A DNA stretch of 64,000 nt, from NCBI GenBank assembly GCA_030445745.1, contig JASUTE010000003.1, forward strand, positions 62,001 through 126,000, read 5' to 3'. The position numbers were made by a program, and so were the translations under genes. The notes below the pieces were generated by a model. It was not told where the DNA came from, did no database searches, and worked only from the letters and a program-made list of their open reading frames with translations. Position 1 is the stretch's first letter. Every line of letters begins with the position of its first letter. Shown here piece after piece: positions 1,306-24,495 of the stretch. The stretch is from Candidatus Cloacimonadota bacterium (GTDB lineage: Bacteria > Cloacimonadota > Cloacimonadia > Cloacimonadales > TCS61).

Positions 1306-2550
1306 TTATTTTAGTGATTTAGCTGTTAAATATCCATGTACAGTGGCATAAATTATCGACCGAGTATAGCCGGAACAATCACCGATGAAAAAAAGATTTT
1401 CAAACATTTCGTTGTTCAGTTTGTTAGAATAAAATTTCACCTCTGGCGCATACACCAAGTTATCTTCATTTGCCACACCTGGCACTATTTTATCCAAGTT
1501 TTCCACAAAATCTATTATACTTTCGGTTATGCGCCTGGGAAAGGCCAAATTTATATCGCCCAAAATAAAATTATCTTCACCTAAAGTTGGTTTAACCCTG
1601 TACAGATGCTTGGTTCGCTTAGAATTCTTAAAATTATCGTAAGTTTGCAAAATCACTTTGCGGTCTCCCGCTAGAATATTGGTTAATTTAGCAATGTAGG
1701 AACCATATCCCACCGGATCATCAAAAGGAACGGTCAAGCTAACCGTGGTTAGAATGGCAAAATTTGTCGTCTCGCTTTTTTCCTTGTATTTGGAATGGCC
1801 GTTTACAGTGACAAAATCGTCATATTTTTCAGTTACCACATAGCCCGAAGGGTTATTGCAAAAAGTTCGCACCGTGTAGCCGGTTTTACTACGATAGCGT
1901 ACCTTGAATTCATACATCTCTTGATTCAGTTTTTCCACAATATGGTTCGGAAGCTCGAAGCGCACGCCTAAATCTACTTTGGTATTATCTGAAACTATCT
2001 CGGGAAATTTTTTGATTATATTTCTCACCAGTTTATGTCCGCTGCGACCAACTGCCACTATAACCTTGTCAAAATCGTTTTCGTGGTCTAAAATAACCTT
2101 ATTAGCCAAAATCTCGATTTCTTGCACTTTGTGGTTGAAATGGAAATGTATATTTTTGTAAGAACTAAAATCTTTGTAGATATTGAACAAAACTTCTTTT
2201 AACTGGTCAGTTCCCAAGTGATAAAAATCGGAAATTATTGGTTGAAACCCTTTTCTATAGAACTGACGATAAAATTCTTCGTTGCCAAAAGAAGTACCAG
2301 TTTCATAGCGTTTTTCTTTGGTTTTATTTATATAAAAATCTACCATTTTTTTCTGCAATTCAGGATCTATTTCTAGCTCACCACCCATTTGTTCGGAAAC
2401 AAATAGCTTACCGTCGGCTCTAATACCCGAAATGCTGGAAGAATATACATCTTTACTCTGTTCAAAAACATGGATTTGATGCTTTGTCCCTTTCATATTT
2501 TCCAAAAAACCAATGGCGGCTGCACCGAATCCCACAACTGCTATCTTCAC
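1306..2550 (-). CDS. NAD(P)/FAD-dependent oxidoreductase
   Basis: A 414-residue flavoprotein of the two-dinucleotide-fold type. The N-terminus carries the FAD-binding GxGxxAxG pattern (VVGFGAAAIG, residues 5-14), followed by an acidic residue at the end of the second strand (FEQS). A second GxG-type strand appears as VIVAVGRSGHKL near residue 165, and the C-terminus has the FIGDCSGYTRSI segment that normally contacts the flavin. It resembles the broad group annotated as FAD-dependent dehydrogenases in anaerobes, whose substrates are mostly unknown. Its start overlaps the end of the upstream AMIN-HTH gene by four bases, and pgk follows, so the three are probably co-transcribed. I see no redox-active CxxC motif. 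The substrate cannot be inferred. Confidence 0.75.
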   Translation of the reverse strand: MKIAVVGFGAAAIGFLENMKGTKHQIHVFEQSKDVYSSSISGIRADGKLFVSEQMGGELEIDPELQKKMVDFYINKTKEKRYETGTSFGNEEFYRQFYRKGFQPIISDFYHLGTDQLKEVLFNIYKDFSSYKNIHFHFNHKVQEIEILANKVILDHENDFDKVIVAVGRSGHKLVRNIIKKFPEIVSDNTKVDLGVRFELPNHIVEKLNQEMYEFKVRYRSKTGYTVRTFCNNPSGYVVTEKYDDFVTVNGHSKYKEKSETTNFAILTTVSLTVPFDDPVGYGSYIAKLTNILAGDRKVILQTYDNFKNSKRTKHLYRVKPTLGEDNFILGDINLAFPRRITESIIDFVENLDKIVPGVANEDNLVYAPEVKFYSNKLNNEMFENLFFIGDCSGYTRSIIYATVHGYLTAKSLK

Positions 2551-3674
2551 TTTTCTTGCCCCTCTTCCCCTTTTTGTTCTTCTCGGTTGGTTTGTAGATA
2601 GGAAATTACTTCCCCTTCACTTAGTTCCAATTCCTGGGCTATTTCAGCTAATTTCCAACCTTTTAACTTCAGTTTTTCTATCACTTCCCGTTTAAAATCA
2701 TCATCACCGAAACCTGCTTCAGAGCGATAATTTACCTCTTTAATCTTGGGAATATGATTTAACTTCTTTTTCTTACCAATATTCTCTTGTATAAGTTTTA
2801 TTACTATCTTCAAGATAAAGAAAGCTAAAAGTAGCTGCACTATCACCACAATAATTTTGGTGAAAAGAGAAGCCCCCTTGTTTGTCTTTGATTGTTGTCT
2901 TTGGCTTTCCTGAGCTATCTTCTCCTTTTCTGCCTCTAATCTCTGAACGAAAATAGATTCCGGTGAAAGCGTTTCTGCCAATACTACTTCTTGTTTACTC
3001 TCTACAGAATCTGCTAGCAGAGAGTCGTTTAAAGTTTGCTGATTGTTTGATGGCTGTTGTTGGCCACTAATTGCTGGATTTTGTATATTGGGTATTTGCT
3101 GCTGGTTTGCCTCAGTTTCTTCTTGTGCAGTTTCTTCTTTTTTTACTGTATGTTTGTTCTGCTCGTTATTTTCTTTAGCAGACTTTTTTTTCAGTTCTTC
3201 AGCTTTTTCGCGATACTTTTGTGCTAAAACTTGGTTTTTCTTTATGATTTGGTTATAAGATGCGTAACTCATTAATTCTTCGTAAGTTTGAGGATCCAAC
3301 GTGTTAAAAATGTCGATTACCAGTTTGTAATGCTGCTTTTCCTTGTAATAGAGTGTTTTTTGAGTGACATATTTTTTGTCTGTATAAATAATAAATTGCA
3401 AATCTTCCCCATCAATTTGAAAATCCCACGCTTCCAAAACCTGATTATCGTTAAAGATTTCATCAACCACATTTGTTCCTTTTACAGTCTCACGCAGCGT
3501 TATCTTCAATTTTTTTGGTCTAGAAGTAATACTATAATCGATATCGGAGCTAAGCACCAAAACTACACGGTCTATTTCACCATAATTGGCATGGTAGATA
3601 TTGTTCAAAGTAGCTGCCCAACCTACTGTCCCTAGCAGGACAGCCAAGATCAAAGTTATCTTTTTCATCTTCAC
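2547..3674 (-). CDS. Membrane protein: AMIN-like domain, TM helix, C-terminal HTH
   Basis: A 375-residue protein with an unusual order of parts. Residues 1-21 are a signal peptide or first membrane segment. Residues 22-125 are beta-rich and resemble an AMIN domain, the cell-envelope domain found on amidases and secretins (VVLVLSSDIDYSI, LKITLRE, YKLVIDIFN). Residues 145-265 are charged and Gln/Asn-rich, likely coiled or disordered. A strong hydrophobic helix spans 271-295 and is followed by a KKKK anchor. Residues 328-361 form a textbook helix-turn-helix pattern (WKLAEIAQELELSEGEV). The predicted layout is a periplasmic sensor-like domain and a cytosolic HTH. It starts 42 bases after the TPR gene and overlaps the FAD oxidoreductase gene. 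The function is not known; the HTH may bind protein rather than DNA. Confidence 0.7.
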   Translation of the reverse strand: MKMKKITLILAVLLGTVGWAATLNNIYHANYGEIDRVVLVLSSDIDYSITSRPKKLKITLRETVKGTNVVDEIFNDNQVLEAWDFQIDGEDLQFIIYTDKKYVTQKTLYYKEKQHYKLVIDIFNTLDPQTYEELMSYASYNQIIKKNQVLAQKYREKAEELKKKSAKENNEQNKHTVKKEETAQEETEANQQQIPNIQNPAISGQQQPSNNQQTLNDSLLADSVESKQEVVLAETLSPESIFVQRLEAEKEKIAQESQRQQSKTNKGASLFTKIIVVIVQLLLAFFILKIVIKLIQENIGKKKKLNHIPKIKEVNYRSEAGFGDDDFKREVIEKLKLKGWKLAEIAQELELSEGEVISYLQTNREEQKGEEGQEK

Positions 3675-3716
3675 CTCGGCTAGTATATTAGAACGAACTG
3701 ATAAGATGTCAAGAGG

Positions 3717-4364
3717 TCATTTTCTCAGTTTCCTTTTCACAAACTCGAAATTTTTGTGGAATTTCTTATTTTGGGGTGAAAGTGAAACTGCTTTTTCCAA
3801 ATACTCATAAGCTTTCTCATATTGTTTCAGCAAAATATAAACTGAACCAATATTGAAAATTATGGTAGGGCTCTCAGGATAATATTCCTCTGCTTCCAAA
3901 AGCTTATTCAAGGCAATTTTATCGTTTTTCTTTTCCAAATCTACTACTGCGCTGTTCAATAGCTGTTTCGATTTTACATATTTTTCTCGTGCAACTACAT
4001 CTTCTGAAATTTTTAAATATTTCTGAAAAGTTTTGTTTTGAGGTTGCTGTTGCAAAAGTTCCTTGTACAGCAGCGGAGCTTGCTGCCACTTACCCAACAT
4101 CAAATAACACTCTGCCAAAGAAAGTATATTTAGCATATTTTCTGGGTATTCCTGATAGACCTTTTCCAAAAATTTAGCAGCTTCCTCATATTTTTGGGAA
4201 GACATAAGCGCTAAGCCCAAATTAAACTTATCTTCCACAGCACCACTACGTATAAGCGCTTTACGAAAGCACTTTTCTGCGCGTAAGGGATGACCTTTGG
4301 TCAATAATTTCTGACCTTGTTTCTGGTAATACTTACTTAATAAATAATTAATCATATTTTGCAT
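3717..4364 (-). CDS. TPR repeat protein
   Basis: A 215-residue protein built almost entirely of tetratricopeptide repeats. Typical repeat cores are KCFRKALIRSGAVEDKFNLGLAL near residue 30, KFLEKVYQEYPENMLNILSLAECYLMLGKW near 62-92, and YEKAYEYLEKAVSLSPQNKKFHKNF near the C-terminus. I see no signal peptide or membrane segment, so it is probably cytosolic or attached to a partner. TPRs mediate protein-protein contacts. It lies between rnfB (75-base gap) and the AMIN-HTH gene (42-base gap) on the same strand, so it may be a distal part of the rnf transcript. A link to Rnf assembly is only a positional guess. The start has no strong ribosome binding site. Confidence 0.75.
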   Translation of the reverse strand: MQNMINYLLSKYYQKQGQKLLTKGHPLRAEKCFRKALIRSGAVEDKFNLGLALMSSQKYEEAAKFLEKVYQEYPENMLNILSLAECYLMLGKWQQAPLLYKELLQQQPQNKTFQKYLKISEDVVAREKYVKSKQLLNSAVVDLEKKNDKIALNKLLEAEEYYPESPTIIFNIGSVYILLKQYEKAYEYLEKAVSLSPQNKKFHKNFEFVKRKLRK

Positions 4365-4439
4365 GTAGTTAAAATTCTCTATTTATAGAAATTACGCAAG
4401 CTTTTTCCCAAAAAATATATCAATTACAGCCTTTTTTGC

Positions 4440-5342
4440 TTATTCTTTATCTTCTGCAGCTTTTTGTTTTGCTGCTTCTACTTTTTTCTTAGCAGCCTCT
4501 GCCTTAGCTTTAGCCTCAGCTTTCTTTTTAGCTCGTACTTCTTTTAAAGGATCAAATATAGCTGCAGTGGGGCAAACATCGGCGCATTGACCACAATTTA
4601 TACATTTTTCATAATTTATCACAGCTAAATTATTGTTAAGCGTTATAGCATCTACTGGACATTTTTTTACACATAGTCCGCAGCCTATACAAGCGGTTTT
4701 ATTGCCACAGGCAGGACGAGCCACTGCGCCTTTATCTTGTGATGAACACAATACATGCACACGTTTTTTCACAGGTACTAGTTCAATGAGATCACGTGGA
4801 CAAGCCTTCACACAAGCTCCACAGCTGGTACATTTTTCCTTATCAATAATCCTCATGCCATTTTCATCTAAATGGATAGCATCGAAATTACAAGCTTCTA
4901 AGCAATCATTCTGAAAAACACATCCATAATTACAAAGATTGGGACCATTAGAAAGCTGTACAGCCGCTTTACAGGTTGGAATACCTTCATATTTATATCG
5001 GAAAAAGGTATTATTGGAGCCACCACTTTGGCAGTGAATAAGAGCTACTTTTCGTTCTGTTGCGGTTGCTTCCACTCCCATAATCTTGCTAATTTGCCCT
5101 AAAACTGCAGAACCGCCAGGAGCACATTTGTTAATATCTACTCCATTGTTCACTATAGCTTCGGCATAAGCAGAGCAGCCCGGGTAACCACAAGCACCAC
5201 AATTAGCCTGGGGAAGAATTTCTGTTATTTTCTCTATTTTAGGATCAACTTCTACATGGAATTTGCGGGAGGCGTAAGCTAATCCCAAACCGTAGATCAA
5301 GCCTAAAATTCCTAAGGTGGCTACAGAATATACAATTATCAT
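4440..5342 (-). CDS. rnfB: Rnf complex subunit RnfB
   Basis: A 300-residue iron-sulfur subunit of the membrane Rnf complex, which couples ferredoxin oxidation with NAD to Na+ or H+ movement. It has one N-terminal membrane helix (residues 2-24), then the 4Fe-4S cluster site of the RnfB domain (CGACGYPGC about 48-56, with a fourth Cys in INKCAPGG). Two or more ferredoxin-like cluster pairs follow: [24 protein letters not shown] and [12 protein letters not shown]. The last 30 residues are an Ala/Lys-rich helix, a tail common in RnfB of anaerobes. It is the last gene of rnfCDGEAB, the usual order in anaerobes, and follows rnfA by 12 bases. Confidence 0.96.
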
Positions 5343-5355
5343 AACTAAATTCCTC

Positions 5356-5943
5356 CTAAATATTTAAACCTGAAAAGCCCAGGAATGCTAGTGCCATACT
5401 GCCAGCGACTATCATTGCAATTGGCATGCCCTTCATGCTAGCTGGTACTTCAGCTTTATCTAACCGTTCCCTGATTCCAGCCATAAGGACTAATACCAAG
5501 GTAAATCCCAATCCAGCAAAGAGACCATTCAAAATTGCTCCGATAAAATTCAATTCTTCGTTAATATTCAAAATAGCCACACCTAACACAGCACAGTTGG
5601 TGGTAATAAGTGGTAAATACACTCCCAAAGCCTTATAAAGTGCAGGCGCTGTTTTCTGTATTACCATCTCTACTAGTTGTACCAGAGAGGCAATGGTCAA
5701 AATAAAAGCTATAGTTTGTAAAAATTCCAATCCTAACGGGACCAGTACAAAAGTTTGGATGAGCCAGGTAAAAGTAGAAGCCAAAGTCATCACAAAGATA
5801 ACTGCCATTCCCATTCCCAGGGCTGAATCCAACTTTTTAGAAACACCAATGTATGGACACAATCCTAAGAACCTGGCTAAAACAAAGTTATGAACAAATA
5901 TTGTCGCAATTGCTAAAGCAAAAATTCTTCCTATAAGTTCCAT
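5356..5943 (-). CDS. rnfA: Rnf complex subunit RnfA
   Basis: A 195-residue integral membrane subunit with about six hydrophobic helices, the normal length for RnfA/NqrE. Family marks include the N-terminal [19 protein letters not shown] and the internal [13 protein letters not shown]; each carries a Cys, and the equivalent residues hold the intramembrane iron-sulfur site in Rnf/Nqr structures. With its inverted-topology paralogue RnfE it forms the central electron and ion pathway. It follows rnfE with an eight-base gap and precedes rnfB. RnfA and RnfE are paralogous, but the C-terminal [25 protein letters not shown] supports RnfA here. Confidence 0.95.
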
Positions 5944-5951
5944 CTATTCTC

Positions 5952-6539
5952 CTATTTCCTCTTTGTCAAATTCATCAAACCCATCAAAAGCCCCATCACC
6001 AAAAAGGCGCCTGGTGCTAAAATTGCTATTAAAATAGGTTTATAACCAGCTGACATCACATTCATACCAAAAAATTGGCCAGCTCCTAATAATTCCCGAA
6101 TTCCACCAATCACAATCAATGCTAATGTGAATCCTAAGCCCATTCCCAAACCATCAAAAATGGAGCTGATAGTGTTATTTTTACTGGCAAAAGCTTCTGC
6201 TCTTCCCAATATAATACAGTTAACCACAATAAGCGGGATAAATAATCCTAAGCTTTTGTGAATTTCCGGTAAAAAAGCGTTCATGGTGAGATCAACTATA
6301 GTTACAAAAGAAGCTATTATAACAATGTAGGAAGGAATTCTTATCTTTTCTGGAATAAAATTTTTAACAAGTGATACGAAAATATTGGAAAACACCAGTA
6401 CAAAAGTAGCTGCCATACCCATTCCAATAGCATTTTGCACTGAAGTGGTAACAGCTAGGGTAGGGCAAAGTCCTAATGCCATCACGAATACCGGGTTTTC
6501 CTTTATCAAACCTTTGGAAAACTCTTTCGTCAGTTTCAT
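5952..6539 (-). CDS. rnfE: Rnf complex subunit RnfE
   Basis: A 195-residue membrane subunit, paralogous to RnfA with opposite topology, with about six helices. Diagnostic segments are KENPVFVMALGLCPTLAVTTS near residue 14 and FIPLIVVNCIILGRAEAFASKN near 104; their Cys residues match the shared iron-sulfur site. The C-terminal part, FGMNVMSAGYKPILIAILAPGAF, is typical of RnfE. It overlaps the rnfG stop by four bases and is followed by rnfA. Confidence 0.95.
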   Translation of the reverse strand: MKLTKEFSKGLIKENPVFVMALGLCPTLAVTTSVQNAIGMGMAATFVLVFSNIFVSLVKNFIPEKIRIPSYIVIIASFVTIVDLTMNAFLPEIHKSLGLFIPLIVVNCIILGRAEAFASKNNTISSIFDGLGMGLGFTLALIVIGGIRELLGAGQFFGMNVMSAGYKPILIAILAPGAFLVMGLLMGLMNLTKRK

Positions 6540-7156
6540 TCAGCTACCTCCTTCTTATTCTGGTTGTTAAGTGCAGTTTCAATGTTATTTAGACCCTCTT
6601 TTATGGAATTTGTAATCGCCCGACTAGAGATTGTTGCTCCAGTTAAACTTTGAATTTGGCCTCCATCTTTATCTACCTGCAATTCTGCTTTTGTTAGTTG
6701 AGAAAACTGCGAGGTGAAAGATTCTTCTTCGCAATTAGCTCCCAAACCGGGAGTTTCGGCCTGGTTTATTATTTTTATCTTGTTAACAGAAAGATCAGGA
6801 TTTACACCCACCATGGTTTCAATTGTACTGCTATATCCATATTTTTTAGCTACAAAAGTGTATCCAACAATCTCCTGTTGGTTGTTTTTTCCTATATAAA
6901 ACACAAATTCGTTGCTTCCAGACGTTTCTTTTTGTATTTTTAAGGGATCAGGCTTACTCTCTGCTCTTTCCATAGCTATCGATTTTTTTTCAAATATTTC
7001 TGCCTGAGGCAATACCAAACTGCGGGCTTCTTCCTCTGTCTTTAACTTATTATTTTCTATAATTGGCTCCGTGTAACTGTTTATTAGCGCTAATACACCA
7101 CTGGCTATAGCGCCTATAAGCAATAAAATAAACCCTAATTTCAAATAATATTTCAT
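6536..7156 (-). CDS. rnfG: Rnf complex subunit RnfG, FMN-binding
   Basis: A 206-residue subunit with one N-terminal membrane helix (about 7-27) and a periplasmic FMN-binding domain. The flavin is normally attached covalently to a Thr in an S/T-GATxSS motif, seen here as LTGATISSRAI near residue 172. The preceding GLGANCEEESFTSQF is the usual glycine-rich stretch of this domain. It lies between rnfD and rnfE with four-base overlaps on both sides, suggesting coupled translation of the membrane subunits. Confidence 0.95.
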   Translation of the reverse strand: MKYYLKLGFILLLIGAIASGVLALINSYTEPIIENNKLKTEEEARSLVLPQAEIFEKKSIAMERAESKPDPLKIQKETSGSNEFVFYIGKNNQQEIVGYTFVAKKYGYSSTIETMVGVNPDLSVNKIKIINQAETPGLGANCEEESFTSQFSQLTKAELQVDKDGGQIQSLTGATISSRAITNSIKEGLNNIETALNNQNKKEVAE

Positions 7157-8208
7157 TTTTTTACCTCCCCAAAAGGTTTGGGAACTGTGTATCTATCGAT
7201 AAGTGGAACAAACATATTCATAAATAATATGGAATAGGAAACACCTTCTGGATAACCACCTACTAAACGGATTACCACTGTCAACACTCCGCAACCAATT
7301 CCAAAGATTACTCTACCTCGTTTGGTAACAGGTGACGTGACCATATCAGTTGCCATAAAGAATGCTCCTAATATTAAACCGCCAGCAAATATATGGAACA
7401 CAGGTAACAACAAAGAGGCCGAGAAAAGACCATTAATTCCACCAAAAATATAGGTTAACACAAAAACTGTGGCAATATAGCTAACTGGAATTCGCCATTC
7501 GATGATATGTTTGTAAGCCAAGAAGGCAGCACCAATAAGTAATGCAGCTGCTGATATTTCACCTAAACATCCACCAATATTGCCCCAAAACAAATTCTGT
7601 ATAGTATCCATACTGGCCAGTTGGTTCATAATATTATCTTGCATATTAGCTGCCACCTGAGTAGTATCACGCAAGGCTTTTGCTGCTCCCAAAGGAGTTG
7701 CCGAAGTAATTACTTCAGGTATTTTAGAAGGCAAACTCCCCAAATTCAAACCGTTTATTGAACCTAATCTGGTCGGCACCCAGCCAGAGGTCATGATACT
7801 TGGCCAAGACGCCATCAAAAATGCTCTACCCAATAAAGCTGGGTTGAAAATATTGAAGCCAAGTCCACCAAATATCTGTTTCCCAATAGCGATAGCAAAA
7901 ACGGCCCCTACCACGGGAATCCACCATGGTGCTGCGGCATTTATATTAAAAGCTACTAAAATACCTGTAACCACGGCACTACCATCTTTAATAGTAACAG
8001 GAACTCCTCTGAATTTTTGAATTATTGCTTCGGTAATAACTGCAGCTGCTGCGCCGTAGAGGGTTAGCAAAAAAGCTTTGGTGCCATAGAAATAGATGCT
8101 AACCAGCAAAGCTGGCAGTAATGCCAGCACTACCTGCCACATTATCGAAGATACAGAGACTTTTTCTTTAATATGGGGTGCTGCCGAAACAGTATAAACA
8201 TCACTCAT
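7153..8208 (-). CDS. rnfD: Rnf complex subunit RnfD, FMN-binding
   Basis: A 351-residue polytopic subunit with about nine to ten membrane helices. The N-terminus SAAPHIKEKVSVSSIMW is the usual RnfD opening. SATPLG near residue 176 matches the segment whose Thr carries covalent FMN. The C-terminal half holds the conserved MATDMVTSPVTKRGR stretch and FMNMFVPLIDRYT. It is translated between rnfC (14-base gap) and rnfG (overlap). Confidence 0.95.
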   Translation of the reverse strand: MSDVYTVSAAPHIKEKVSVSSIMWQVVLALLPALLVSIYFYGTKAFLLTLYGAAAAVITEAIIQKFRGVPVTIKDGSAVVTGILVAFNINAAAPWWIPVVGAVFAIAIGKQIFGGLGFNIFNPALLGRAFLMASWPSIMTSGWVPTRLGSINGLNLGSLPSKIPEVITSATPLGAAKALRDTTQVAANMQDNIMNQLASMDTIQNLFWGNIGGCLGEISAAALLIGAAFLAYKHIIEWRIPVSYIATVFVLTYIFGGINGLFSASLLLPVFHIFAGGLILGAFFMATDMVTSPVTKRGRVIFGIGCGVLTVVIRLVGGYPEGVSYSILFMNMFVPLIDRYTVPKPFGEVKK

Positions 8209-17140: not shown

Positions 17141-17442
17141 AATACCTCTTGCTTCTAATTTTTTTGGAAATTTGAATTTCTTGCTGGTTTCTGTCAATAT
17201 TAAAAACAATAAATGGCATACCTCGAAATTTTTTTTAATCTGCTTTTATCGGAGTAGGCATATTAACCAAGATAAGGGAGAAAATATATGGACAAATTCT
17301 ATTCCACTTTATAAAAAGTGAATAAGCTAAACAAGTTGTGTAAAACAAAAATTGGTTGTTTTAGCAGCAAAAATACCTTAAATTGTTTGCTGATTAGGTT
17401 GTAACTTTTTTAATTGAATAAATTAACAAAACAGGAGGCAGA
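17141..17442. promoter_or_regulatory. Divergent control region, M20-dap operon / trehalose operon
   Basis: A 302-base AT-rich gap between two outward-facing operons. Visible parts are one copy of the ATGGACAAAT element (17288-17297) with the usual AGAAAA lead-in, a small perfect hairpin CACTTT-ATAA-AAAGTG (17305-17320) just after it, and AGGAGG at 17433-17438 for the GTG start of the trehalose synthase. I saw no convincing sigma-70 hexamer pair and no riboswitch. Confidence 0.4.
17288..17297 (+). repeat. ATGGACAAAT element, copy 2
   Basis: AGAAAATAT followed by ATGGACAAAT, 155 bases before the trehalose synthase start, with a small hairpin directly downstream. Confidence 0.45.
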
Positions 17443-19635
17443 GTGGCAAATTTAATAATCGTTTCGAACAGGTTACCGGTAAAATTACAAAAAAAAGATA
17501 ATACAATTAAATATGAAATGAGCACTGGAGGTTTAGCCACTGGCTTGAAATCATTTTATAAAAGTTACAATGGTTTTTGGATTGGTTGGCCTGGGATAGC
17601 TAGCAAAGAAATTTCAGATAAGAAAGATGAAATTAAAAATACTCTGAATGAAGAATACAACTGTGAGCCAGTTTTTTTGAATCAGCAAGAGATAGATCAC
17701 TACTATTTGGGTTATAGCAACAGGGCGATGTGGCCTCTGTGCCATTATTTTACCCAATTTGTTACCCACGACCTTGAAAATTGGCAAATCTATAAAAAAG
17801 TAAATCAGAAATTTGCCGAAAAGGTAGCTGCAATAGCTAAAGAAGATGATATTGTCTGGGTGCACGACTATCATCTGATGTTACTACCTAAAATGTTGCG
17901 ACAGAAGCTAAAAAATATTCGTATTGGTTATTTTCATCACATTCCATTTCCCTCCTACGAGATTTTTAGATTATTACCCTCCCGAAAGCAGATTTTGGAA
18001 GGTTTACTGGGAGCAGATCTTATAGGATTTCATACCTACGATTATCTGCGACATTTTCTGAGTAGTGTCCAACGATTACTTGGTTATAACAGTAATTTGG
18101 GGAAAATTGAATTGAATGAACGACTGGTGAAGGTAGATTCTTTTCCTATGGGTATAGATTTTGTCAAATTTTCGCAAGCTGCAGAAAACTCTGAAGTACA
18201 AAACAAAATTAAAACTCTGAAAAATAAATTGGAAGGACACCAAGTAGTGCTTTCTATCGATAGAATGGATTATACCAAAGGAATTTTACAGCGCTTGCAA
18301 GCCTATAGCAATTTTCTTAGGAAATATCCGCAATATACCGGCAAGCTCAAATTTATTGTGGTAACTGTTCCCTCGCGTGAAGAAGTAGAACAGTACCATC
18401 AGCTAAAAAACAGTATAGAACGTTTAGTAAGCGAAATAAACGGAGAGTTTGGTATTTTAGGTTGGATGCCGATTTGGTATTTACACAAGGCATTTGATTT
18501 TAAAGATCTGGTCGCTCTCTACAATGTTTCCGATATTTATGTAGTAACACCGCTGCGTGATGGTATGAATTTGATGGCTAAAGAGTATTTAGCTGCCCGC
18601 AACGATAAAAAAGGACTTCTAATTCTAAGTGAAATGGCTGGAGCTGCTAATGAATTGGGAGAAACCATAATTGTTAATCCTAACAATATTGAAGAGCTGG
18701 TAGAAGCAATAAGAGAAGCTGTTAGTGCACCAGACGAAGAAAAAATACGACGTAATGAAATTATGCGAGAGAGATTAGCCAGATACGATGTGCAAAGATG
18801 GGCAGAGGATTTTGTCCAGAAATTACTAAAAATGAAAGAACTACAGAAGATGCGACATGCCAATATTTTGAATAAAGCACGAATAGAAAAAATAAGGGAA
18901 TCCTTCCACAATGCTCAGCAGCGGCTGCTATTAATCGATTGGGACGGTACTTTGTTACCAATCTCAGAAAATAAGAATAAAATGCAGCCTACTGCAAAAA
19001 TTAAACATATTTTGCGGAAGTTGAACCAAAATAGTAAAAATAAATTAGTAATTTTTAGTCAGGCAGAAAAAGAGATTATGCAGACCTGGTTTAGCGATTT
19101 AGAAATCGATATGGTAGCGGCAAACGGGGAGTTTGTAAATCTGGCAGGCAGATGGCAACAATTTGATATCTTTGAAAACGACTGGAAGGATGACTTGCGT
19201 ACAATTTTTCAAGTTTTCGTCGATAGAACTCCCGGCTCGTTTTTTAAAGAAAACAAGTACTCCCTTATTTGGAACTACAGCAAAGCTGCTTTCGATTTGG
19301 GTGAAATGAGAGCACGCGAGTTAGTGAATGAGCTGATTAGCGTAACGGCAAATATGGAATTGCAAATCTTGGAGCATGAAAAAGAAATAGAGTTGCGTGC
19401 CGGCGGGTTAAGTAAAGAACATGCCTCTCTTCGCTGGCTTACTTCCAATCAATGGGATTTTGTGCTGGTGATTTCTGATGGTTTGACTGGAGAAAGGATG
19501 TTTGAGCATCTTCCCCAAAATTCCTATACAATTAGTGTAGGAAAACCGCAAAATAAAACCGATTTTTTTGTAAAAAAACAAGAAGTTATCCTCGAATTTT
19601 TGGAATATTTAAGTGAGGAGCAAAATGAGAATTAA
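17443..19635 (+). CDS. otsA: Trehalose-6-phosphate synthase with degenerate phosphatase domain
   Basis: A 730-residue two-domain protein starting at GTG with AGGAGG four bases upstream. Residues 1-480 are a GT20 synthase joining UDP-glucose and glucose-6-phosphate. Key blocks are present: SNRLPV, GGLATGL, YSNRAMWPLCHYF, WVHDYHLMLLP, IDRMDYTKG and RDGMNLMAKEY. Residues 485-725 are a HAD fold of the trehalose-phosphatase type. Its first motif survives (DWDGTL, 499-504), but motif II reads SQAEKE in place of SGR, and motif IV reads SDGLTGE (678-684) where GDDxTDE is expected, so two metal-binding Asp are Gly. The WHYR signature is WNYS. The second domain is therefore probably weak or inactive. 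An intact separate HAD protein follows, which could supply the phosphatase step. Confidence 0.9.
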   Translation: MANLIIVSNRLPVKLQKKDNTIKYEMSTGGLATGLKSFYKSYNGFWIGWPGIASKEISDKKDEIKNTLNEEYNCEPVFLNQQEIDHYYLGYSNRAMWPLCHYFTQFVTHDLENWQIYKKVNQKFAEKVAAIAKEDDIVWVHDYHLMLLPKMLRQKLKNIRIGYFHHIPFPSYEIFRLLPSRKQILEGLLGADLIGFHTYDYLRHFLSSVQRLLGYNSNLGKIELNERLVKVDSFPMGIDFVKFSQAAENSEVQNKIKTLKNKLEGHQVVLSIDRMDYTKGILQRLQAYSNFLRKYPQYTGKLKFIVVTVPSREEVEQYHQLKNSIERLVSEINGEFGILGWMPIWYLHKAFDFKDLVALYNVSDIYVVTPLRDGMNLMAKEYLAARNDKKGLLILSEMAGAANELGETIIVNPNNIEELVEAIREAVSAPDEEKIRRNEIMRERLARYDVQRWAEDFVQKLLKMKELQKMRHANILNKARIEKIRESFHNAQQRLLLIDWDGTLLPISENKNKMQPTAKIKHILRKLNQNSKNKLVIFSQAEKEIMQTWFSDLEIDMVAANGEFVNLAGRWQQFDIFENDWKDDLRTIFQVFVDRTPGSFFKENKYSLIWNYSKAAFDLGEMRARELVNELISVTANMELQILEHEKEIELRAGGLSKEHASLRWLTSNQWDFVLVISDGLTGERMFEHLPQNSYTISVGKPQNKTDFFVKKQEVILEFLEYLSEEQNEN

Positions 19636-20821
19636 AACAATTAAAGATTTCTACAATTTTATCTTTGAAACCCGAGATTTTAAAAGAAAACTTCTGAGAA
19701 AAAAATTAAATGCTGAAAAAATAAAAAAATCTGAGATAAAAAAATTGGAAAAATATGTGGTGAAATTGCTGAAAATTCCTCTTGGAGCAGGTAATCATGT
19801 TTTGGAATATGCAGAGGGCAAGAAAACTAATTTGGATCTGTTCTATGAGATAGATGAATTGACCAAAGATGTGATTTTTTTATCTGAAACCGAGAAAAAT
19901 TTCATGGATTATCTGAATAAAATGAATGAAGACTTTGAAAATGACGTAGAAACTGGTTTGGAATTTATATCAAAATCAGACATTACAACTTTTATTTCCG
20001 ATCGTGATGGAACGATTAATAACTATTGTGGTCGCTACAACTCTTCTATTCAATCGATCTACAATGCTAGTTATCTTATCGATATTGCCAAAATTTTGGA
20101 AAAACCAGTAATTCTTACTTCCGCACCACTGCAAAATACTGGGTTCTTAGATATGAACATAATGCCACCTAATTTTTTTGTAATTGCTGGTTCTAAAGGC
20201 AGAGAATTTACTTGGAAAAATCAATTTTACAAGATGCATTTGGATGAACAACAACAACAAAAATTAAATATTCTGAACCAGAAATTACAAGACTTAATAA
20301 ATAAGCCCTACTACGAAGTTTTCGCACTTATCGGTTCGGGGTTACAGTTTAAATTTGGTGAAACAACAATAGCGCGTCAAGATGTTTACAACTCGATTCC
20401 ACAACAGGATTCCCAAAACTTTTTGCAAAAAGTAGAAGAAATTGTTCGCAATATCGATCCTAAACAAGAATATTTTTCCATAATCGATACGGGCAAAGAT
20501 ATTGAAATAATTTTACATAAAAAAGATGCTGGAGTTTCTTCAGAATTCAGCAAGGGTGATGGAATCGAGTTTATTTCTAAAAAAATTGGCTTAAACTTAA
20601 CAGAAGCAGATAATCTGATATGTGGCGATACTGCTTCCGACCTGGCTATGCTGGAGTATGCTGAAAAGGTTACTCCAAATAATTATTCTATCTTTGTAAC
20701 TCAAGATGAAAAATTGAAAGAGAAAGTTGGGAAATTTGCAAGCAAAAATCTATTTGTAAGTTCACCCGATGCATTAGTAACTATTTTACATAAATACGCT
20801 TTGGAAAGGAGTACTAACTGA
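19625..20821 (+). CDS. HAD phosphatase, candidate trehalose-6-phosphatase
   Basis: The ATG at 19625 is preferred (398 residues), because GAGGAG lies five bases before it; a GTG 12 bases upstream has no site. Residues 1-115 are a charged helical extension with no match I recognise. The HAD core then shows intact motifs: ISDRDGTI near residue 126, LTSAP as motif II, SKGDGIEFI with the catalytic Lys, and CGDTASDLAML as motif IV. The gene overlaps the end of the synthase gene and the next gene's ATG (TGATG), so it belongs to the trehalose operon. Given the degenerate phosphatase domain of the neighbour, a trehalose-6-phosphatase role is a reasonable guess. A glucosyl-phosphate phosphatase of another kind is possible. 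Confidence 0.75.
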   Translation: MRIKTIKDFYNFIFETRDFKRKLLRKKLNAEKIKKSEIKKLEKYVVKLLKIPLGAGNHVLEYAEGKKTNLDLFYEIDELTKDVIFLSETEKNFMDYLNKMNEDFENDVETGLEFISKSDITTFISDRDGTINNYCGRYNSSIQSIYNASYLIDIAKILEKPVILTSAPLQNTGFLDMNIMPPNFFVIAGSKGREFTWKNQFYKMHLDEQQQQKLNILNQKLQDLINKPYYEVFALIGSGLQFKFGETTIARQDVYNSIPQQDSQNFLQKVEEIVRNIDPKQEYFSIIDTGKDIEIILHKKDAGVSSEFSKGDGIEFISKKIGLNLTEADNLICGDTASDLAMLEYAEKVTPNNYSIFVTQDEKLKEKVGKFASKNLFVSSPDALVTILHKYALERSTN

Positions 20822-23800
20822 TGAATTTCAAAGGAGCTATTTTCGATTTAGATGGTGTGATTACCAAAACAGCTAAACAGCATTTTAAAGCTTGGAAAAA
20901 GACATTTGATGAATTTTTGGAAAAACTGGGAAAAAATGGGGAATTTACTTACGAAGATGATTATCTACCTTATGTGGATGGTAAACCGCGCTATCAGGGG
21001 GTGAAATCTTTCTTAGAATCCCGTGATATCGATTTGCCTTTCGGTTCACCAAAAGATAAAGCTGGTAGCAAAACCATTTGTGCTGTTGGCAATAGGAAAA
21101 ATGACCTATTTCGCCAAATAATAGCAGAAGAGGGAGTTGATATCTATCAGAGTACTGTGGATTTCATAACAAAATTAAAAGAAAATGGTGTAAAAGTAGG
21201 AGTAGCTTCTTCCAGCAAAAATTGTAGTTTTGTATTGGAAAAAGCAGGTATTTTACATTTATTCAACACAGTTGTAAATGGGTTAGTTTCCAAAGAATTG
21301 GGTTTGCAGGGAAAACCAAACCCCGATATTTTTACTGTAGCAGCAGAAAATATCGGAGTAAAGCCATACGATAGTTTTATGGTAGAAGATGCTATTTCTG
21401 GTGTACAGGCAGGTAAAAATGGCAATTTTGGTTTGGTGATAGGTGTAGCTCGCCAATCAGATGCTCAGGAATTGCAGGCAGAAGGAGCTGATATTGTGGT
21501 AAGCGATATTGGTGAACTTAGCTTAGAAATGATTGAAAACTGGTTTGATAAAGGGTTACAGGACGATAGTTGGAATCTTACCTATCGTAAATTTGAACCA
21601 GACCAGGAAAAGCTGCGGGAATCGCTTACAACTGTAGGAAATGGATATTTTGGAACCCGCGGTTGTTTTGTTAGCAGTCAAGCTGATGAAGTTCTGCATT
21701 ACCCAGGAACTTACATAGCTGGAGTTTACAACAAACTTACTAGCAAAGTTTATAAGAAAAATGTGGTTAACAACGATTTTGTTAATTGCCCTAATTGGCA
21801 GCTTATTAAAATAAAAATTGGTGATGATTTTATTGAGCCTCTGCAACAGAATATATTGAATTATGAGCATAACTTGAATATGAAGGATGGATTAGTTACT
21901 CGAAAAGTTGTTTTTGAAGATAAAAAACAGCGTCGTACTAAAATTGAGACAACCAGATTTGCCGCTTTGAAAGACTACCATTATGGCGGGCTGGAATTTA
22001 AAATTACACCGTTAAACTATTCTGAAACAATTAAATTATACTCCACCTTAGATGGCGATATTATAAATTTTGGTGTCCCCAGATATCGCGATCTTAATTC
22101 ACGCCATCTTTCCCCTATTACCGTGGGAAAAGAGAAAGAGAAGATCTATTTAAAAGTGAAAACTGTTACTTCGGAAGTTAAGATCTTTATGGAAGCACAA
22201 CATCAGTTGTATTGGAATGACAAAAGTTTTGCTGCTGAAAGTGAATTGGAAACCGGCTCTGGTATTGTTTCCGATATTTATACAATAGAAGCTGTAGAAG
22301 GAAGCTGCTACCAGATGGATAAATTAGTTGGTATTTATACTTCCAAGGATAAAGATATTGATGATTTGAATGATACTTTCAAGAAAAAATTAGCAAAAAC
22401 CAGAAGCTTCAATAAAATTAAAAAAACTCATATAAAAAAGTGGCATCAACTGTGGCAATATTCCGACTATAAAATAACTGGAGATCGTTTTACCCAGAAA
22501 GCTGTTAGGTTACATATCTACCACCTCTATTCAACAGCTAATATCAACAACCAAAACATTGATGCGGGAATGCCCGCTCGCGGATTACACGGTGAGGCAT
22601 ATCGCGGACATATTTTTTGGGATGAGCTGTTTATCTATCCTTTCTATAATATTCATTGCCCTCAGATTACTCGTGCCCTGCTGATGTATCGTTATAAACA
22701 TTTAGATGCTGCTAGACAATATGCCAAGGAAAATGGCTACAAAGGTGCTATGTTTCCATGGCAAACAGCCGATGATGGCAAGGAAGAGACTCAAGAAGTA
22801 CACTACAATCCAATGTCGGGAAGCTGGGATCCAGATTACAGCCGTCTGCAACGTCATGTTTCCATAGCAGTAGCTTACAATGTTTGGGAATATTTCTATC
22901 TTACCCATGATTTGGAATTTCTTATCTACTATGGTTTGGAAATAATGTTGGAAGTTGCCAGGTTTTGGGCTAGTATTGCCAAATTCGACCAAAAAGATGG
23001 TAGATATCATATAAATGGTGTGATGGGCCCCGATGAATTTCACGAAAAATATCCTGGTGCCAAGCAGGGAGGCTTACAAGACAATGCCTACACCAACATC
23101 ATGGTCAGCTGGCTTTTGCATAAAACTATAGAAACTTATCAGCATCGCGACGAGGAAGTAAGAAAAGCTATCGCTGCCAAAATAGACCTAAAAGAGAGTG
23201 AAATTGAAAAGTGGCAGGATATTGTGAAGAAAATTAACATAGAGTTTTCTGACAACATAATCTCACAATTCAAAGGATATATGAATTTAAATGAATTAGA
23301 TTGGCAGCATTACAAGAATAAATACAAAGATATTCATCGTTTGGACAGAATTCTGAAATCGGAAGGAGATTCTCCAGATAAATACAAAGTAGCAAAACAG
23401 GCAGACGTAATGATGACTTTTTATATGCTATCCCCGTCTCAGGTGAAAAATATTCTGGAGATGATGGGTTACAAAGTAGGTAAAGCGCAAAAATTATTAA
23501 AGGATAATTATGAATATTACCAAAAGCGCACTTCCCATGGTTCCACACTAAGTCTTGTAGTACATTCAGCTATTCTAACCTACGTGAAAGAGCATAAAAA
23601 ACAGATGTGGGAATGGTTCCATAGAGCAATGCAGAGTGATATTTATGACATTCAAGGTGGTACAACTCAGGAGGGAATTCACACTGGGGTTATGGCCGGC
23701 TCTTTAGATATTATCTTCAAGAGTTTTGCCGGTATCAATATCTTCCGAGACCATCTACATATTCAGCCTTTTTTACCAAAACATTGGCAGAAACTGGAAT

Positions 23801-23964
23801 TTATGATGTATTACAAACAGAATTGGCTTAATCTGAAAATTACTCAGCAGGAAATAGAGATTTCAATTAATAAATTTGGAGAAAAAATCTATTTCGAAGT
23901 AGAAAACCAAACATATGAATTCAAAAATAAGAAAAAAATTCAGATCAAATACAAGGCGACCTAA
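20821..23964 (+). CDS. Beta-phosphoglucomutase / GH65 disaccharide phosphorylase fusion
   Basis: A 1047-residue fusion. Residues 1-235 form a HAD beta-phosphoglucomutase: FDLDGVITKT with Asp9 and Asp11, YVDGKPRYQGVKSFL, ASSSKN, KPNPDIF and VEDAISGVQAG. Residues about 240-1035 are a GH65 enzyme with the (alpha/alpha)6 block MPARGLHGEAYRGHIFWDEL, SGSWDPDYSRLQRH, the catalytic Glu739 in GVMGPDEFHE, and the phosphate-site segment GGTTQEGIHTG. GH65 phosphorylases split alpha-glucosides with phosphate to beta-glucose-1-phosphate, and the mutase converts this to glucose-6-phosphate. The operon makes trehalose the obvious substrate; kojibiose, maltose or nigerose cannot be excluded from sequence alone. 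Its ATG overlaps the preceding TGA. Confidence 0.9.
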   Translation: MNFKGAIFDLDGVITKTAKQHFKAWKKTFDEFLEKLGKNGEFTYEDDYLPYVDGKPRYQGVKSFLESRDIDLPFGSPKDKAGSKTICAVGNRKNDLFRQIIAEEGVDIYQSTVDFITKLKENGVKVGVASSSKNCSFVLEKAGILHLFNTVVNGLVSKELGLQGKPNPDIFTVAAENIGVKPYDSFMVEDAISGVQAGKNGNFGLVIGVARQSDAQELQAEGADIVVSDIGELSLEMIENWFDKGLQDDSWNLTYRKFEPDQEKLRESLTTVGNGYFGTRGCFVSSQADEVLHYPGTYIAGVYNKLTSKVYKKNVVNNDFVNCPNWQLIKIKIGDDFIEPLQQNILNYEHNLNMKDGLVTRKVVFEDKKQRRTKIETTRFAALKDYHYGGLEFKITPLNYSETIKLYSTLDGDIINFGVPRYRDLNSRHLSPITVGKEKEKIYLKVKTVTSEVKIFMEAQHQLYWNDKSFAAESELETGSGIVSDIYTIEAVEGSCYQMDKLVGIYTSKDKDIDDLNDTFKKKLAKTRSFNKIKKTHIKKWHQLWQYSDYKITGDRFTQKAVRLHIYHLYSTANINNQNIDAGMPARGLHGEAYRGHIFWDELFIYPFYNIHCPQITRALLMYRYKHLDAARQYAKENGYKGAMFPWQTADDGKEETQEVHYNPMSGSWDPDYSRLQRHVSIAVAYNVWEYFYLTHDLEFLIYYGLEIMLEVARFWASIAKFDQKDGRYHINGVMGPDEFHEKYPGAKQGGLQDNAYTNIMVSWLLHKTIETYQHRDEEVRKAIAAKIDLKESEIEKWQDIVKKINIEFSDNIISQFKGYMNLNELDWQHYKNKYKDIHRLDRILKSEGDSPDKYKVAKQADVMMTFYMLSPSQVKNILEMMGYKVGKAQKLLKDNYEYYQKRTSHGSTLSLVVHSAILTYVKEHKKQMWEWFHRAMQSDIYDIQGGTTQEGIHTGVMAGSLDIIFKSFAGINIFRDHLHIQPFLPKHWQKLEFMMYYKQNWLNLKITQQEIEISINKFGEKIYFEVENQTYEFKNKKKIQIKYKAT

Positions 23965-23994: not shown

Positions 23995-24069
23995 TTGACA
24001 AAAAATTACGCAGTAACTAGTTTAGTAATTAGTGTATTGAAGAAGAAGTTTAATAAACAGGGAGGTTTT
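23995..24069 (+). promoter_or_regulatory. Candidate promoter of the pspC-like operon
   Basis: A perfect TTGACA lies at 23995-24000, followed after 17 bases by TAGTTT, a weak -10. GGAGG at 24061-24065 then serves the ATG at 24070. An ORF that could start within this region has no ribosome binding site and would place a non-homologous extension on the PspC protein. The -35 match is good and the -10 match is poor. Confidence 0.4.
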
Positions 24070-24495
24070 ATGAAGAAGTTACATCTTTCCCAAAAAAATC
24101 GCGTTATTGCAGGCGTGTGCGGAGGTTTAGCAGAATCTTTAGGTATAGATGCTAATATCGTTAGAGCAATTTTTGGTTTATCTGTATTTTTTGGTGGTGC
24201 TGGGTTATTCCTCTATTTAGTACTTATGATAATTTTACCTAAAGATACAAATTACGAGGAAAAGGAGATCATTGATGTAGAGGTTAAGAATAAGTCGGGT
24301 AAAATCTATCGCAGTTGGGACAACAAGATGATAGCTGGTGTTTGTGCTGGGTTAGCCCGCTATCTAAGCTGGGATGTTAGTTTAGTGCGAATAATTTTTG
24401 TTCTGTTATTCTTAAGCGGTGGTATAGGCGCTATACTCTATTTAATTTTCTGGTTACTATTCCCTTTAGAAGGAGTAGAGGGTGAAGAGGAGTAA
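24070..24495 (+). CDS. Tandem PspC-domain membrane protein
   Basis: A 141-residue protein from the ATG with GGAGG five bases upstream. It contains two successive PspC domains: KNRVIAGVCGGLAESLGIDANIVR plus a hydrophobic helix ending in LPKD (residues 3-56), and NKMIAGVCAGLARYLSWDVSLVR plus a helix ending in FPLE (about 79-134). PspC domains act in the envelope stress (phage-shock) response, usually as inner-membrane partners of PspA or PspB. No other psp gene is nearby. The two domains look like an internal duplication. The last codons overlap the GTG start of the DUF362 gene. Confidence 0.88.
   Translation: MKKLHLSQKNRVIAGVCGGLAESLGIDANIVRAIFGLSVFFGGAGLFLYLVLMIILPKDTNYEEKEIIDVEVKNKSGKIYRSWDNKMIAGVCAGLARYLSWDVSLVRIIFVLLFLSGGIGAILYLIFWLLFPLEGVEGEEE

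Follow-up and report, generated by a model that had tools for sequence, protein, structure and literature searches.

A trehalose-6-phosphate synthase with a probable pseudophosphatase domain, encoded beside a GOB-1-type phosphatase in a Candidatus Cloacimonadota genome

The window, the whole 64,000-nucleotide stretch of DNA analysed here, encodes a fused trehalose-6-phosphate synthase (TPS) whose C-terminal phosphatase (TPP) domain has lost conserved residues of the active site. This domain is probably a pseudophosphatase retained for the synthase, its former activity being replaced in trans by a GOB-1-type trehalose 6-phosphate (T6P) phosphatase from the same operon. The features of the operon are as follows:

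17443 to 19635, forward strand: fused trehalose-6-phosphate synthase / putative pseudo-phosphatase gene (open reading frame of 730 aa with a GTG start and GGAGG at 17434-17438)
17449 to 18825, forward strand: GT20 synthase domain (aa 3-461), intact (PF00982, E 1e-167, 558.8 bits)
18931 to 19620, forward strand: decayed HAD / trehalose-phosphatase domain (aa 497-726; PF02358, E 5e-32)
18937 to 18951, forward strand: motif I DWDGT (aa 499-503), retained (D499-W-D501-G-T503)
19057 to 19065, forward strand: motif II SQA (aa 539-541) replacing SGR, with Ser539 kept (motif alignment)
19246 to 19281, forward strand: cap segment (aa 602-613) with E602K, K604N, H611N and R613S at conserved columns (alignment)
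19411 to 19422, forward strand: motif III SKEH (aa 657-660) replacing NKGR, with Lys658 kept (motif alignment)
19474 to 19494, forward strand: motif IV SDGLTGE (aa 678-684) replacing GDDxTDE, with the Mg ligand D683 lost and D679 kept (alignment)
19625 to 20821, forward strand: GOB-1/nematode-type T6P phosphatase (398 aa from ATG 19625; PF21141 E 1e-80, PF18572 E 4e-10)
20821 to 21555, forward strand: beta-phosphoglucomutase (bPGM) half of a bPGM-GH65 fusion (TIGR02009, above cut-off)
21556 to 23964, forward strand: GH65 half, predicted T6P phosphorylase (PF03632, E 1e-120; specificity residues DQAQDE)

The 730-aa protein matches NCBIfam PRK14501 with 909 bits and carries both parts of a prokaryotic TPS-TPP fusion: a GT20 domain with conserved catalytic columns and a C-terminal PF02358 domain of the HAD/TPP fold (Pfam Trehalose_PPase match over aa 497-699; 111 bits against a cut-off of 27). 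Domain order and length are the same as in the prokaryotic fusions (TPSPs) of Cytophaga hutchinsonii and Thermoproteus tenax. Such fusions are monophyletic in prokaryotes (PMC3634074). Profile searches of the 2.04 Mb genome returned one TPS of the fused kind and one PF02358 domain; no second OtsB was found in this whole-genome PF02358 search. The operon is followed directly, with no change of strand, by a gene for a protein with two PspC domains (23995-24495).

Conservation was scored against 82 fused TPS-TPP proteins with intact motifs, a conserved column being one at 93% or above, which gave 108 columns in the TPS half and 41 in the TPP half. The sequence-only reading had described this reading frame, its coordinates, the motifs SQA and SDGLTGE, an intact GT20 half and a retained DWDGTL, and all of these were recovered: the GT20 half keeps 105 of its 108 columns, and D499, D501 and T503 are present. 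In the TPP half 24 of the 41 columns are kept; the mean for intact relatives in a leave-one-out comparison is 98%. The losses include G540, R541, H561, E602, K604, H611, R613, G645, G659, G678, D680 and D683, among others, and the residues kept include D499, D501, T503, S539, K658, D679 and E684. G540, R541, G678, D679, D680, D683 and E684 are 100% conserved in the 82 intact relatives; therefore, the motif changes at these positions are not chance variation. The full set expected of a bifunctional enzyme with active TPP (DxDGT, SGR, K, GDDxTDE) is not present, the protein reading DWDGT, SQA, K and SDGLTGE. PRK14501 and TIGR00685, both with scores above their cut-offs, label the protein a bifunctional phosphatase, a label that is probably wrong.

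In the structure of Brugia malayi T6P phosphatase, the Mg ligands are D213, D215 (through its main-chain carbonyl), D424 and D428 (PMC4081830). Alignment to this protein places the kept D679 at D424 and the lost D683 at D428, and position 680 is Thr there. Thus, of the two acidic metal ligands said in the sequence-only reading to have become Gly (680 and 683), only the one at 683 is a direct ligand; the claim does not hold for 680. Position 684 was the candidate for a shifted substitute. No conserved replacement for the missing Asp was found: E684 stands at GDxxxxE spacing, but it is Lys in a related genome (G170, locus L140, described below), which rules out Glu684 or a shifted Asp as the substitute ligand. 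The cap losses E602K, K604N, H611N and R613S are absent from the sequence-only reading. Columns 602, 604 and 613 fall in the IERKxxALTWHYR segment of the cap, as aligned to the solved fungal TPPs 5dxi and 5dxl. In the Candida Tps2 structure, Glu131, Lys133 and Arg142 of this segment presumably contact the glucose of T6P.

Because a metal ligand, motif II, the surroundings of motif III and cap residues are lost in combination, and because the comparison across genomes agrees, the domain almost certainly lacks T6P phosphatase activity, even if sequence alone does not prove this. A domain that still works as a phosphatase, with an altered metal site or on another substrate such as a different sugar phosphate, is improbable. 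The motif I Asp pair, Ser539, Lys658 and Asp679 are kept, so that a weak or different phosphatase activity is compatible with the sequence, and E684 retains the GDxxxxE spacing. Against this stand the loss of the second metal ligand and of the cap residues that would contact T6P, the further loss of Thr503 and Glu684 in G170, by which the residue set lacks the constancy of an active enzyme, and the change of the nucleophile to Asn in parallel lineages.

The same decayed state was found in G170, a genome of the same class and a different family. Its locus L140 has the operon order of the window: the TPSP (1343-3529), a GOB-1-type gene (3541-4737) and a bPGM-GH65 fusion (4734-7907). The TPP motifs read DYDGA, SQAE, SKEHA and SDGLAGK and share the SQA, SKEHA and SDGLxG changes with the window protein. 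The two proteins are 63% identical, with 71% for the TPS half and 50% for the TPP half, and they carry seven identical replacement residues at conserved columns (540, 541, 613, 659, 678, 680 and 683). The shared operon and these seven replacements rule out a sequencing or assembly error behind the altered motifs, an explanation with a vanishingly small remaining probability.

There is an 11-bp overlap between the synthase stop and the gene downstream of the fusion, which in turn overlaps the third gene by one base. This second gene, the main context of the decayed domain, is absent from the sequence-only reading. GAGGAG precedes its ATG at 19625; an alternative GTG start at 19613 would give 402 aa. 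Both domains of a GOB-1-type T6P phosphatase are present, PF18572 at the N-terminus and PF21141 at the C-terminus, and its solved relatives are the B. malayi structures 4ofz and 5e0o (E 2e-36). The protein keeps D130, D132, T169, K314, D339 and D343, which match the B. malayi catalytic set D213, D215, T253, K398, D424 and D428 and are invariant in five bacterial homologues. Unlike the B. malayi enzyme of this family, the one in the window is bacterial. Within the phylum, the family scores above cut-off in G000 and G170 only; three Spirochaetaceae genomes carry it as well, adjoining a bPGM gene or a bPGM-GH65 fusion. A plasmid search found no relatives of the GOB-1-type gene on plasmids. The N-terminal MIT-like domain was reported in 2014 from nematodes and mycobacteria only (PMC4081830). 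Bacterial GOB-1-type phosphatases, some with the MIT-like PF18572, were seen at four loci besides the window gene (L127, L128, L129 and L140), and these genes are donor-side candidates in the gob-1 transfer that has been proposed. With them, the range of the GOB-1-type phosphatase with an MIT-like domain comes to include bacteria, a point relevant to the suggestion that nematode gob-1 was acquired horizontally.

To place these losses in a wider context, a sample was drawn of 80 loci with a fused TPS-TPP, all from named genomes, and of ten TPSP genomes of the window's phylum; the neighbours are MAG-based. Across 89 genomes with a fused TPSP, a separate T6P phosphatase is encoded in 8 of 8 with a decayed domain and in 8 of 81 with an intact one (Fisher 1.8e-7, ignoring phylogeny; the rows are related, and a tree of the TPS half requires four independent losses). 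A phylogeny-aware test on independent pairs was not significant (4 pairs, p 0.5), the events being too few. In the three lineages other than that of the window, the motif I nucleophile has changed from Asp to Asn. Three genomes of the window's phylum (G012, G039 and G048) encode a bPGM-OtsB fusion with an intact TPP, a GH65 gene and a TPSP whose fused TPP has the Asn nucleophile, and one Atribacterota and two Spirochaetaceae genomes read NYDGTL, each also encoding a separate T6P phosphatase. The loss of phosphatase function proposed in the sequence-only reading is well supported by G170 and by these parallel nucleophile losses.

Within the phylum, a decayed TPP, a separate T6P phosphatase and GH65 coincide in the same five genomes, with the cassette in the same operon in 5/5; the TPSPs with an intact TPP (G010, G162, G165, G166 and G167) occur without a separate T6P phosphatase and without GH65. 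An intact fused TPP and a separate T6P phosphatase coexist in some genomes (G121, G127, G129, G138, G139, G144 and G183), which shows that decay is not an obligatory result of replacement. Two of the decayed lineages have sisters with an intact domain (L036 and L047) in which a separate T6P phosphatase is already present, a pattern that fits gain of the separate enzyme before loss of the fused one. The several independent losses in bacteria allow comparison, and this makes the old question of why a synthase retains an inactive TPP testable. Three further observations concern this sample. All five intact phylum TPSPs (L010, L142-L145) adjoin a TreT-type GT4 gene (PF21269), which the five decayed genomes lack and which recalls the glycosyltransferase acting as TPSP activator in T. 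tenax. One other GH65 gene occurs in the phylum, at L152 (G038), where no fused TPS-TPP is encoded. At L146 (G079), a distant GT20 protein (34% identity) stands immediately before a short separate OtsB, so that synthase and phosphatase have the order of the fusion but are unfused.

The decayed domain nevertheless appears to fold. Its AF2 model has a pLDDT of 90 (86 for the full-length protein) and the fungal TPP fold, with 5dxl as the best PDB match (TM 0.82, Foldseek) and the Candida regulatory domain 5hus among the fold matches. For two closely related Spirochaetaceae genomes that carry a decayed domain, dN/dS was 0.008 for TPS and 0.066 for TPP; the TPP/TPS dN ratio is 15, based on just three TPS amino-acid changes, compared to 0.6-2.6 in intact pairs. 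In this pair, the domain is relaxed yet under purifying selection. Neutral decay, by which the domain has no role and simply has not yet been deleted, would account for the vanishing conserved TPP columns and for the faster change of TPP than TPS (50% against 71% identity between the window and G170). It is nonetheless a doubtful explanation, as the domain is full length and free of frameshifts in two genomes of different families, its model folds at pLDDT 90, and dN/dS is 0.07 in the other decayed lineage.

The TPS domain of T. tenax shows no activity in isolation, and its activation by a partner depends on fusion to TPP (PMC3634074). A scaffold role of the window domain for its synthase is favoured by this precedent, by the confident fold and by the purifying dN/dS in another lineage, and we infer that the HAD fold may be kept for synthase folding, oligomerisation or activation. 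The earlier description of the domain as structural or regulatory is plausible on the fold model and the dN/dS of 0.07 in the other lineage. A minor possibility is that the domain is a ligand sensor that binds a phosphosugar without hydrolysis and regulates the synthase. Residues on the phosphate side are kept and those related to catalysis are lost, and a regulatory function has been described for eukaryotic TPS proteins whose TPP domain is inactive (PMC3634074); the sugar-contacting cap residues are lost, however, and the retained residues vary among lineages.

The third gene of the operon provides a second connection to T6P. Six GH65 specificity positions have been defined by De Beul et al. 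(PMC8537180), and in the same work a verified Caldithrix T6P phosphorylase reads DQGQDE and trehalose phosphorylase TRIGPP. These positions (64/392/394/402/416/585) were read through alignment to Caldicellulosiruptor kojibiose phosphorylase. The window protein has D, Q, A, Q, D and E, identical to DQGQDE at five of six positions with Ala for Gly, and also has the catalytic Glu in GPDE and the phosphorylase-type HGSTLS loop. On the six specificity residues it is predicted to be a T6P phosphorylase; trehalose phosphorylase is disfavoured by DQAQDE rather than TRIGPP. Among cassettes linked to a T6P phosphatase, G170 reads DQAQDE like the window, one reads DQSQDE and all others DQGQDE. Two unrelated GH65 genes read TRI- at these positions. 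Among PDB chains the closest is 9lb6, which bears the name T6P hydrolase and also gives DQGQDE by alignment reading. As a separate observation, a bPGM-OtsB fusion with a GH65 gene of T6P phosphorylase signature behind it was found at L011 (9298-10884), L130, L132-L135 and L137; this cassette is widespread in several phyla, often in genomes with a fused TPS-TPP elsewhere.

With the domain as a retained pseudophosphatase, the intact synthase half would make T6P and release it, and the GOB-1-type enzyme would dephosphorylate it in trans to trehalose. The predicted T6P phosphorylase and bPGM would link the T6P pool to glucose 6-phosphate (G6P), or the reverse. The presence of a separate phosphatase may have relaxed selection on the fused site, and the uncoupling of the synthase from its own phosphatase would make T6P, we infer, a free branch point between trehalose and G6P. 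It is also conceivable, if unlikely, that the bPGM-GH65 protein and the GOB-1-type enzyme form a trehalose route independent of nucleotide sugars, with two T6P sources and one irreversible exit. Here G6P would be converted to beta-glucose 1-phosphate, this and G6P to T6P, and T6P to trehalose; loss of the synthase's own phosphatase would then have allowed the flux of T6P to be shared and to run in reverse. A T6P phosphorylase has been run in the synthetic direction in vitro (PMC13121652).

Returning to the proposed pseudophosphatase, an open-access literature search found no published example of an inactive TPP domain on a bacterial trehalose synthase; such domains are known from eukaryotes. 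In T. tenax TPSP the TPP motifs are conserved and phosphatase activity is high, in contrast to the lost motifs and the separate phosphatase alongside in the window. The eukaryotic TPS proteins (yeast Tps1/Tps3/Tsl1, plant class I/II) likewise have a degenerate TPP and obtain the phosphatase from another protein; the window case differs in being bacterial, of independent origin and replaced from within the operon by an enzyme of a different T6P phosphatase family. Nematode TPS-1/TPS-2 carry a phosphatase-like domain beside the separate GOB-1 phosphatase (PMC8277472). There both domains are GOB-1-type, which is read as subfunctionalisation, whereas the decayed domain of the window is OtsB-type and the putatively active one GOB-1-type, suggesting a non-orthologous replacement. 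In Mycobacterium tuberculosis, OtsB1 (Rv2006, 1327 aa) is an OtsB homologue without a synthase fusion, unlike the window protein; it has been described as having no T6P phosphatase activity, OtsB2 doing the job (PMC11046441). Finally, the lactococcal TrePP and bPGM likewise pair GH65 with a beta-phosphoglucomutase acting on T6P. In that pathway T6P comes from PTS uptake; the window operon instead has a synthase and a phosphatase, with bPGM and GH65 fused.
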